Source: Aliiroseovarius zhejiangensis | GTDB taxonomy: Bacteria; Pseudomonadota; Alphaproteobacteria; Rhodobacterales; Rhodobacteraceae | Assembly (NCBI RefSeq): GCF_014656375.1 | Contig: NZ_BNCH01000002.1 | Coordinates: 310,001-374,000, forward strand | Length of the DNA stretch: 64,000 bases | Direction of reading: 5' to 3' | Shown here: positions 1,071 through 3,637 of the stretch, one piece after another | Numbering within the stretch: the first letter of the stretch is position 1 | Layout of the letters: every line of letters begins with the position of its first letter | Translations under genes and position numbers: made by a program | Notes under the pieces: model-generated | The model's database searches: none | Told to the model about the DNA's origin: nothing | The model's input: the letters and a program-made list of their open reading frames with translations, nothing else

Positions 1071-1766
1071 ATGAGCATCGACGCACTGCTTTTCGACAAG
1101 GATGGCACCTTGTTTCTGTTCGAGGCAACGTGGGAATCCTGGGCGCATGCGGTGCTGATGCGGCTGACCGATGATGATCCGGAGCGCGCCCGCGTGATCG
1201 GTGCGGATATCGGATTCGACATCGATTCCAGACAGTTCCACCCCGCCAGCGTGGTGATCGCCGGCACGCCGGGTGAGGTCGTGGCGCAGCTTCGGCGGCA
1301 TGTCGCCTATACCGACGCGGCGCTGGAAACAATTCTTAACGAAGAAGCCGCCATCGCCCCGCAGGTCGAGGCCGTCGCCCTTGCGCCGTTTCTGACCGAT
1401 CTGCGCCGGCGCGGGCTGAAGATCGGTGTGGCGACCAATGACGCTGAACGCCCGGCGCGGGCGCATCTGGATGCGGCAGGCGTGACGGGGCTGTTCGACT
1501 TCATTTCAGGCTATGACAGCGGGCATGGTGTGAAGCCCGCGCCGGGGCCGTGCCTGGCCTTTGCCGCTGCGACAGGTCTTGCCCCAGAGCGCGTGGCGAT
1601 GGTGGGCGACAGCCTGCACGACCTGCGCGCCGGACGTGCCGCGGGCATGCGGACCATCGCGGTTCTGACCGGGATCGCAGGCGCCGACGAGCTTGCCCCG
1701 TTTGCCGACATCGTACTGGATGATATCAGCCATATCCCGGACTGGCTGGACAATGGGCAGACCTGA
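1071..1766 (+). CDS. HAD-family hydrolase, phosphoglycolate phosphatase-like
   Basis: A 231-residue protein of the haloacid dehalogenase superfamily. Motif I is DKDGT at residues 9-13 (nucleophile Asp followed by the general-acid Asp); motif II is the ATND segment near residue 123; motif III/IV is the K in GVKPAPGP and the VGDSLHD segment near residue 180. The helical cap between motifs I and II places it with the Gph/PGP-like phosphatases. The substrate cannot be told from sequence; phosphoglycolate is only the family's best known one. Preceded by GGAAAGG at a usual distance. Confidence 0.85.
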   Translation: MSIDALLFDKDGTLFLFEATWESWAHAVLMRLTDDDPERARVIGADIGFDIDSRQFHPASVVIAGTPGEVVAQLRRHVAYTDAALETILNEEAAIAPQVEAVALAPFLTDLRRRGLKIGVATNDAERPARAHLDAAGVTGLFDFISGYDSGHGVKPAPGPCLAFAAATGLAPERVAMVGDSLHDLRAGRAAGMRTIAVLTGIAGADELAPFADIVLDDISHIPDWLDNGQT

Positions 1767-1848: not shown

Positions 1849-2445
1849 ATGACGATTCATGGATTGATATTCTGGTGCTTCGAAGGGTTCCTGATCTTCA
1901 CCTATGGGATCGGCCGCTGGCGTTCGATCATGGGTGAACTGGAATTGGGGTATGACAGTTTCGAACCCCTGTTTCGATATGACGTGGATCTGGCGAACCG
2001 TCTGGTCACCGAAGCCGCGCGCCAACTGGACAAGCCGTCGGATATGCTGCTGGAAGATTTCGGCACCTTTCTGGTGACGGATGAACGGGTCGAGCGGGTG
2101 CGCCGTCTGTTGCGCTTCGGCGGTGTGGATTACACGGATTTCCTGCATTCTCTCGAAGATCTGCGCGGCCGGGCACAACTCGCCGTGCCAGAGCTGGACC
2201 TGCCGGTGATCCAGCTTGACGCGGTGTCGGCCGACGAGTTTCAGATCACATGCTGCAGCGTGGCGCCGGGGGTCGGCTTCATCCTGTTGGGGGTGTTGCG
2301 GGCGTTGGCAGATGATTACGGCGCACTTGCGTTTCTGGAACATCTGGGGCGCGACGGACAGGATGAAAGCATTTCCGTTCGTCTGCTGGAAATGCGCCAT
2401 GGCACCGGCCGGGCGTTTCACCTTGCAGCGGGAGGGGCATCTTGA
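1849..2445 (+). CDS. H-NOX-fold (HNOB) protein without the heme-ligating histidine
   Basis: A 198-residue protein with the overall H-NOX pattern: MTIHGLIFWCFEGF at the start, the buried-helix region, FLHSLEDL near 98-105, VPEL, and APGVGFILLGVLRALADDYG near 139-158. In classical H-NOX proteins a histidine after LxxL binds heme and a YxSxR motif binds the heme propionates. Here the ligand position is Arg106, and the motif reads C135-x-S137-x-A139. Heme binding in the standard manner is therefore unlikely. The stop overlaps the start of a diguanylate cyclase, the usual H-NOX partner, so a regulatory partnership is inferred even without heme. Confidence 0.82.
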   Translation: MTIHGLIFWCFEGFLIFTYGIGRWRSIMGELELGYDSFEPLFRYDVDLANRLVTEAARQLDKPSDMLLEDFGTFLVTDERVERVRRLLRFGGVDYTDFLHSLEDLRGRAQLAVPELDLPVIQLDAVSADEFQITCCSVAPGVGFILLGVLRALADDYGALAFLEHLGRDGQDESISVRLLEMRHGTGRAFHLAAGGAS

Positions 2446-3458
2446 CCATCCCACGCACCATCCCGATCGCCTTGCACACGCTGGACCAGATGATGCCGAT
2501 GCATCTGGTTCTGGACGGTGCTGCCCGGATCAGCCATGCAGGCCCGACCATCGAAAAGGTGTTTGGCGGGCCGCTGGTCGGGCGCAGCGCGTTTTCTCTG
2601 TTCGAATTGCGGCGCCCCCGCGTGGTGCGGTCGATGGATGACGTGCGCGCGATGGGGGATGCAAAGGTCTATTTGCGTCTGAAGGACGGGTCGGGGACCA
2701 CGATGGTGGGGGCGGTTTCGGTTCTGTCGGGGGGCAATCAGGTCTTGATGAACCTGTCCTTCGGCTATTCCGTGGTGGATGCCGTCGCACGCTACAAACT
2801 GGCCGGGTCCGACTTCGCGCCCACCGACCTGACGGTCGAGATGCTGTATCTGATGGAGGCCAAGACCGCCGCGATGGAGGCGACCACACAGCTTGCCCAT
2901 CGTCTGCATGACGAAAAGGCCGAAGCACAGGTCGAAGCGATGACAGACGGGTTGACCGGGCTGCACAATCGACGCGCCTTCGACATCCAGCTCGATCGTC
3001 AGATTGCCCGGGGCGGTATGTTTTCACTGATGCATATCGATCTGGATTTCTTCAAGGCGGTCAATGACACGCAAGGTCATGCGGCGGGTGACGCGGTGCT
3101 GCGTGAGGTGGCACGGGTGTTGCAGGAGGAAACGCGCGATACCGATATGGTCGCGCGGGTCGGCGGGGATGAATTTGTCATCATGTTCAACAGGTTGTCC
3201 GATGCAGATATGCTGAACAGCATTGCAACGCGCATCATCGCGCAGCTTGAACGGCCGATCCCGTTTGACGGAAAGGCCTGCCGCATCTCGGCCAGTATCG
3301 GGATTGCCAGAAGCGTGGATTACGACACGGTCTCGGCCGCACAGATGACCGCGGATGCTGATGAAGCATTGTACATGTCGAAGAACAAGGGCCGGGCATG
3401 TGCGACTTTGTTTCAAGCGCCTCCCCAACCGTCCACAGCATTGGGCCGAGGGGACTGA
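2442..3458 (+). CDS. Diguanylate cyclase with HNOBA-like sensor domain
   Basis: A 338-residue protein. Residues 1-150 resemble the H-NOX-associated (HNOBA) domain followed by a signalling helix (TDLTVEMLYLMEAKTAAM). Residues 165-335 are a GGDEF domain: TDGLTGLHNRR at 168-178, GGDEF intact at 241-245, and an intact RxxD inhibitory site (RDTD, 232-235). It should make c-di-GMP from GTP with product inhibition. The start is TTG, overlapping the stop of the H-NOX-fold gene (TTGA), with GGAGGGG just upstream, so translation is probably coupled. An ATG at 2488 is a weaker alternative start. Confidence 0.88.
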   Translation: MTIPRTIPIALHTLDQMMPMHLVLDGAARISHAGPTIEKVFGGPLVGRSAFSLFELRRPRVVRSMDDVRAMGDAKVYLRLKDGSGTTMVGAVSVLSGGNQVLMNLSFGYSVVDAVARYKLAGSDFAPTDLTVEMLYLMEAKTAAMEATTQLAHRLHDEKAEAQVEAMTDGLTGLHNRRAFDIQLDRQIARGGMFSLMHIDLDFFKAVNDTQGHAAGDAVLREVARVLQEETRDTDMVARVGGDEFVIMFNRLSDADMLNSIATRIIAQLERPIPFDGKACRISASIGIARSVDYDTVSAAQMTADADEALYMSKNKGRACATLFQAPPQPSTALGRGD

Positions 3459-3562: not shown

Positions 3563-3637
3563 TGGCAGCCCGTAGGGGAATCGAACCCCTCTTTCCAGGT
3601 TGAAAACCTGGCGTCCTAACCGATAGACGAACGGGCC
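3563..3637 (-). tRNA. tRNA-Glu (UUC)
   Basis: A 75-nt cloverleaf on the minus strand with encoded CCA. Acceptor stem GGCCCGT pairs with ACGGGCT (G1-U72 wobble). The anticodon stem CCAGG/CCTGG closes the loop TTTTCAA, giving anticodon TTC. The T-arm GAGGGGTTCGATTCCCC is canonical. Confidence 0.97.

Follow-up and report, generated by a model that had tools for sequence, protein, structure and literature searches.

How can a protein with the fold of a heme-based gas sensor serve a diguanylate cyclase when the residues that usually hold the heme are gone? The question is raised by a gene pair in the window, the 64,000-nucleotide stretch of Aliiroseovarius zhejiangensis DNA analysed here. The first gene (1849..2445, + strand) encodes P0001, an HNOB or H-NOX-fold protein of 198 aa without the usual heme ligand, recognized from its open reading frame, a profile match and a structure alignment. 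In a profile search P0001 scored 57.4 bits against PF07700 (HNOB; cut-off 25.5) and was the only PF07700 match in the host genome; a search of NCBIfam models with P0001 gave none at E 0.01. The predicted structure (pLDDT 90) had Nostoc H-NOX as its best PDB match, with a TM score of 0.78-0.80 and 22-24% identity, confirming the H-NOX fold assigned in a preliminary description of the locus, and P0001 starts no more than three residues from the H-NOX start. Alignment to Nostoc H-NOX (PDB 4iah, E 1e-10) paired Arg106 (codon CGC, 2164..2166, +), which falls within the alphaF-equivalent helix of the model (residues 95-112; 2131..2184, +), with the His of ...NLDNLH. P0001 thus carries Arg106 in place of the proximal histidine of heme-binding H-NOX gas sensors, as first described. 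The YxSxR heme-propionate motif is also missing: at its site lies C135-C-S137-V-A139 (2251..2265, +), in which C135, S137 and A139 pair with the Y, S and R of YQSTR in Nostoc H-NOX and Ser alone is retained. Furthermore, Leu75, found in 125/128 subfamily members, occupies the position of the Trp in Nostoc ...GEYWV, which we take to be a heme-pocket residue. The only cysteines of P0001 are C10 (codon 1876..1878, +), C135 and C136.

The partner gene starts with TTG inside the HNOB gene, the two sharing the four bases TTGA (2442..2445, +), an overlap already seen in the preliminary description. Its product, P0002 (338 aa; 2442..3458, +), scored 142.6 bits against the GGDEF profile. The GGDEF domain (residues 166-318; 2937..3395, +) contains an RxxD inhibitory site, R232-D235 (3135..3146, +), and the GGDEF motif at residues 241-245 (3162..3176, +). 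Among 88 partner cyclases G241-F245 was invariant, and R232 and D235 were present in at least 90%. Judged by these motifs P0002 appears to be an intact diguanylate cyclase. The cyclase had been described as keeping GGDEF and RxxD, which was correct, but an HNOBA (PAS-like) region at residues 8-83 (2463..2690, +) had been overlooked; it matched PF07701 at 30.8 bits in a profile search (cut-off 23.4), and HNOBA was found at E 0.01 or better in 77/88 partner cyclases. The predicted structure (pLDDT 95) consists of the PAS-like domain, a long helix at residues 130-166 (2829..2939, +, from the model) that links it to the GGDEF domain, and the GGDEF domain itself. Caulobacter DgcB (6ttr) matched the model over coiled coil and GGDEF (TM 0.88 by target). 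Human sGC beta1 (8hbe_B) was aligned over 319 columns at E 5.3e-14 with a TM score of only 0.33, the domain arrangement being different. The sGC-like order, with HNOBA/PAS between H-NOX and cyclase, is present at this locus, and HNOBA sits on the cyclase protein.

The host genome encodes three GGDEF proteins and two EAL proteins, one protein bearing both. The three GGDEF matches are P0002, a GGDEF-EAL protein and the product of a 467 aa open frame matched at G000:C2:309281-309769 (-), roughly 0.2 kb ahead of the window's first base. Since the host has so few of these proteins, the HNOB/cyclase pair could weigh heavily on its c-di-GMP level. A HAD-family hydrolase is encoded upstream of the pair (window 1071-1766, +); one also lies upstream, one gene further away, in Phaeobacter sp. 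G2, and a figure legend of PMC8738867 includes HAD in its abbreviations for neighbour families. A tRNA-Glu gene (anticodon ttc; window 3563-3637, -) is convergent with the cyclase gene.

We then asked how widely this arrangement occurs. The sample comprised 134 loci, of which 128 were distinct after removal of 6 duplicates: the window's own locus, 29 close relatives of the query, 98/100 regions picked among the best-scoring PF07700 matches listed, 2 loci from a class-level draw and 4 plasmid or chromid records. The other two regions (L061 and L122) belonged to the canonical HNOB class and were set aside. Position 106 was occupied by P in 85 members, H in 16, S in 8, R in 8, Q, N, K and A in 2 each and E, T and G in 1 each, so that the proximal His was absent from 112/128; because best-scoring matches were sampled, His-bearing members may be over-represented (12.5% versus 'fewer than 10%' in PMC8738867). 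Neither YxSxR nor a Tyr at position 135 was found in any of the 128 aligned members, including the 16 with His. The replacement of this motif had been read correctly, but its loss is not specific to P0001. A cyclase of the same type lies downstream on the same strand in 128/128, with a match whose first base falls between -72 and +148 relative to the HNOB stop (in L116 the best match was reported over a short stretch only), and 87/128 pairs overlap by ATGA, GTGA or TTGA. HNOB-cyclase fusion was considered as further proof of contact and discarded: downstream of the long frames (496, 586 and 823 aa) the cyclase had a frame of its own. The two HNOB classes together gave matches in 296/394 genomes of the family; in the class-level draw 14/289 genomes had a match, 4 of them in the family. 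No viral copy was found in 46 candidate stretches. The second, higher-scoring Rhodobacteraceae class (L002-L031, L061 and L122) has the proximal His in 32/32 loci and nearly always YxSxR (L122 is without the Ser and L028 without the Arg), often in a motif like HVEVRKLYPDAELP, and 29/32 of its loci had no match to the partner cyclase in the fetched stretch of about 1.5-2 kb on either side.

We propose that the HNOB and cyclase genes would together make up a single signalling module that corresponds to a split sGC beta subunit and in which the H-NOX-fold subunit would dock on the HNOBA/PAS-helix part of the c-di-GMP synthase and set its activity. P0001, with no proximal His, no YxSxR and Leu for the pocket Trp, would no longer hold heme in the usual way and would serve as a heme-independent regulator, most likely one that restrains the cyclase, whether constitutively or in response to some input. 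We regard this reading, a split sGC-beta-like module whose heme-independent H-NOX regulator most likely restrains the cyclase, as somewhat probable. We infer the physical contact between P0001 and P0002, the direction of control and the absence of heme in the cell from the residues and from related systems. H-NOX proteins are reported to touch their kinases through helices A-C and alphaF (PMC7108781), and the PAS domain of active sGC is described as lying close to alphaF on its proximal His side (PMC8196705). In the subfamily the alphaF residues F98, L99, S101, L102, L105, R108 and A112 are each present in at least 121/128 members; at 1.81 bits the entropy of position 106 is narrowly the highest of positions 98-112 (position 100: 1.77), position 96 at the helix start being more variable. 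The conservation of alphaF except at the ligand position suggests that the contact with HNOBA was kept and the heme trigger lost. Restraint as the direction of control would follow by analogy with the genetics of P. denitrificans and a report on D. shibae, both taken up below.

A competing explanation is that P0001 is a heme sensor after all, in which another residue such as Cys135 or His100 holds the heme, or no protein residue does so axially, with control by NO or redox as in D. shibae. The same-subfamily D. shibae H-NOX, listed in a table as a heme/NO sensor by direct assay (PMC8846402), lacks the Tyr and Ser of YxSxR, which is consistent with this explanation, as are Pro119 and Gly72, Gly92 and Gly148, all kept in 128/128 members (the Gly hinge pair of the published Group 5 was compared by description only). 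A conserved proximal Pro is reported to distort the heme in H-NOX (PMC7108781). The host also carries a nirS-type cluster, seen as three consecutive matches to the cytochrome d1 family (G000:C8:83430-94155, -), and so probably makes NO, and NO may be an input; this counts against heme independence. However, nothing consistently replaces His106, as P, S, R, Q, N, K, A, E, T and G all occur there, with Arg, Ser or Lys in close relatives. Cys135 or some other residue could still hold heme or take up NO, which counts against a heme-independent P0001, yet Cys135 is found in 70/128 members and missing from 58. A histidine near enough to substitute had been named beforehand as counter-evidence. His100, six residues away on the same helix and present in 88/128, was examined as such a ligand and rejected: it coexists with His106 in 12/16 rows and is therefore not a replacement. 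We consider a retained heme unlikely and prefer the heme-independent regulator.

To follow the ligand position through the subfamily, a tree was built from 104 members and one outgroup, using HNOB and cyclase joined and leaving out columns 106, 135, 137 and 139. Changes between His and non-His numbered at least 11 on this tree and the same on 128 members, and His was hardly clustered, 63/500 shuffles being as low. Stochastic mapping put the losses at about 19 (13-28) and the gains at about 5 (3-8). A single loss of the ligand was rejected, given the at least 11 changes and the much worse fit of a loss-only model than of one with loss and gain (lnL -53.2 versus -37.6). The number of events is unsure, since errors in quick trees inflate such counts and 36/102 inner branches of the 104-member tree were unsupported. 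His at the subfamily base had a probability of 0.07 under a flat root and with a long outgroup branch, and 'loss' is therefore meant here against canonical HNOB and not branch by branch. The ligand position switches repeatedly between His and other residues over the tree, and in which direction it first did so is unsure. The alignment proposed in the preliminary description, in search of a clade lacking the histidine, did yield a His-poor set when run on the 128 members, but within it His comes and goes. We also considered His as a mark of denitrifiers: strong nirK or nirS-type matches occurred in 10/16 genomes with His106 and 22/64 without (Fisher p 0.0497; one non-His genome, L099/G256, with only a 95-bit PF02239 fragment, was scored as without). 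The link did not hold once the tree was allowed for (LR 5.3, 4 df, p 0.26), and the host itself has a nirS-type cluster with Arg106; the idea was dropped.

For co-variation with His106, models of dependent and independent evolution on the tree were compared by likelihood, in 319 single-residue tests that covered 147 variable columns. Ser10 (LR 22.7) and Trp137 (LR 22.3) came out on top, followed by Leu84 (18.4), against a 99% quantile of 17.2. Ser10 occurs in 14/16 His rows and 24/112 others, Trp137 in 8/16 and 10/112, and the two together in 8/16 and 2/112; the pair is absent from the other 8/16 His rows. Column 137 corresponds to the Ser of YxSxR, and column 10 lies, by alignment, in the first helix, presumably near residues lining the distal pocket. 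The control columns were inside the tree and columns 10 and 135-139 outside it, a difference that may work in favour of the columns outside. Ser10 initially emerged from 967 tests run without correction; W and H at 137 were grouped post hoc, and the single-residue W test was not a post hoc choice. An independent-pairs test of His106 against Trp/His137 had only 4 pairs on supported branches and no power, and the likelihood test was used instead. Because the gap to background is modest, these results are support, not proof, for a variant heme pocket common to the His-bearing members and lacking in P0001 (Cys10, Arg106, Ser137). A fuller history, which we offer tentatively as possible rather than probable, is that the module keeps control of c-di-GMP with or without heme. 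Loss and recovery of the ligand would have recurred many times, heme-competent members having a second type of pocket with Ser10/Trp137 in place of YxSxR; the module would alternate between NO sensor and heme-free restraint, and the Arg106 branch would have settled as heme-free with its pocket refilled (Phe8-Trp9-Cys10 for Asn-Arg-Ala/Ser).

The nearest named relatives of P0001 are Aliiroseovarius strains and one MAG, at 79-87% identity. In four close orthologues within this range the reading frame and the overlap of 4 bases are conserved and position 106 is again not His, three of them having Arg and one Ser, which shows that the pattern is not due to chance; on the tree, the query's branch comprises 4 rows with R, 1 with S and 1 with K. 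Phe8-Trp9-Cys10-Phe11 (window 1870-1881, +) is found in the five close Aliiroseovarius-type proteins, most relatives having Asn-Arg-Ala/Ser-Ile, and side chains of this bulk might occupy the space of an empty pocket. Across 9/10 pairs of the five close proteins the HNOB dN/dS was 0.04-0.11 (the tenth was not computable, and dS was near saturation), and the cyclases of the same five genomes gave 0.07-0.12 in 10/10 pairs. When the more distant L038 was added, the few computable values were higher (HNOB 0.22, cyclase 0.16) with dS saturated. The HNOB gene is under purifying selection.

Selection in spite of the missing heme residues is also what would be expected had the pocket been taken over by another small ligand or a redox switch (Cys10/Cys135, S-nitrosation, a lipid or a porphyrin), making P0001 a new kind of sensor. 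Nine charged residues (E69, D70, R85, R86, R89, R108, R151, D155 and D156), each present in at least 123/128 members and in 0 to 2 of 5 aligned canonical rows, and the C10 and C135 common to the five close Aliiroseovarius-type proteins fit such a takeover, for which the redox control of heme-free H-NOX in V. cholerae is a precedent (PMC7108781). But C10 is found in 7/128 members and C136 in 5/128, the V. cholerae switch is described as a Cys3 zinc site (PMC7108781), and Group 5 is said to be without conserved Cys (PMC8738867); we think a takeover improbable. That the HNOB gene is a decaying relic, persisting only through translational coupling of the cyclase gene, is very improbable: the frequent 4-base overlaps suggest coupling, but decay is contradicted by the low HNOB dN/dS, by eight residues invariant in 128/128 (W24, G72, R89, G92, P119, G148, A154 and D155) and by the in vivo phenotype of a P. 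denitrificans mutant (PMC5588039; polar effects possible). The heme-independent regulator of a split sGC-beta-like module is the reading that we carry forward.

P0001 is one more case of a published but unexplained group of heme-less H-NOX proteins, and the idea of a distinct subfamily in related genomes held in that 112/128 members are without His, but the group was already in print as Group 5 and 16/128 keep His. New here are the tally of how often the pairing recurs, the finding that the ligand position is labile, and the Ser10/His106/Trp137 pattern, through which the question can be put to the test. A search of titles and abstract openings covering few subscription papers found nothing on the Arg106 branch or on co-variation with His106, which is weak evidence. 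Subfamily members are annotated as heme NO-binding (in both annotated plasmid records), and the D. shibae protein and an R. capsulatus homologue are treated as NO sensors (PMC7232146); judged by their residues, most members gathered here probably cannot hold heme in the known way.

Group 5 of the H-NOX sequence network (Lee-Lopez and Yukl 2022, PMC8738867) is described as very large, with fewer than 10% His and most members having Pro, and its authors ask how such proteins sense anything. The subfamily shares these features, with His lost in 112/128, Pro in 85 and a GGDEF neighbour in 128/128, and from this likeness it is probably Group 5; P. denitrificans (L175) aligns within the set. Kumar and Spiro (2017, PMC5588039) reported that no axial His is present in the H-NOX proteins of P. 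denitrificans and R. sphaeroides and that the gene for H-NOX overlaps a GGDEF gene. With these cases in print, the His-less class was already known. The window's pair resembles Group 5 and Pden_3719/Pden_3720 in having an HNOB mostly without proximal His and a GGDEF gene beside or overlapping it, and differs in Arg106, a residue shared by 8/128 members. The P. denitrificans hnoX mutant was partly biofilm-deficient and without BapA, whereas a dgcAB mutant overproduced both, from which opposite phenotypes the authors suggested that H-NOX inhibits DgcA; they also proposed that NO acts via H-NOX despite the missing His (PMC5588039), which counts against a heme-independent regulator. As the P. denitrificans HAMBI_2443 orthologue has Pro106, the hnoX phenotype indicates that a His-less member still acts in vivo.

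With sGC the module shares H-NOX, HNOBA/PAS, coiled coil and nucleotide cyclase, but sGC has these in one chain and makes cGMP, whereas here they are divided between two proteins with a GGDEF domain for c-di-GMP. The H-NOX domain of sGC alpha, without His (human) or YxSxR (moth), is reported to be heme-free and yet retained; there an N-terminal extension keeps heme out (PMC8196705), whereas P0001 starts within three residues of H-NOX. The heme-free redox sensor of V. cholerae likewise shows an H-NOX able to act on its partner without heme, but it retains the His, carries a Cys/zinc site and has a histidine kinase as its target; its zinc site is given as three Cys plus His/Gln, two of the Cys being C-terminal (PMC7108781), and P0001, compared by description, has no C-terminal Cys. 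The closest functional comparison is H-NOX/Dgc1 of D. shibae (Dshi_2815 and its neighbour), of the same subfamily and gene order with 40% HNOB and 45% cyclase identity, where H-NOX is reported to bind NO and inhibit Dgc1 (Bedrunka 2018, via PMC8846402 and PMC7232146). The locus taken as D. shibae DFL12 (L154, HNOB at 1904-2491, -), from a genome in which a stretch of pDSHI01 recurs with 100% identity at identical coordinates, has Ser10, His106 and C-I-W-H-R (Cys135-x-Trp137-x-Arg139); with His106 and Arg kept and the Tyr and Ser of YxSxR missing, its heme pocket must differ from that of canonical H-NOX. P0001 has Cys10/Arg106/Ser137 in place of Ser10/His106/Trp137, and comparing members of the D. 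shibae type with the rest would be a direct test of which of them are NO sensors.
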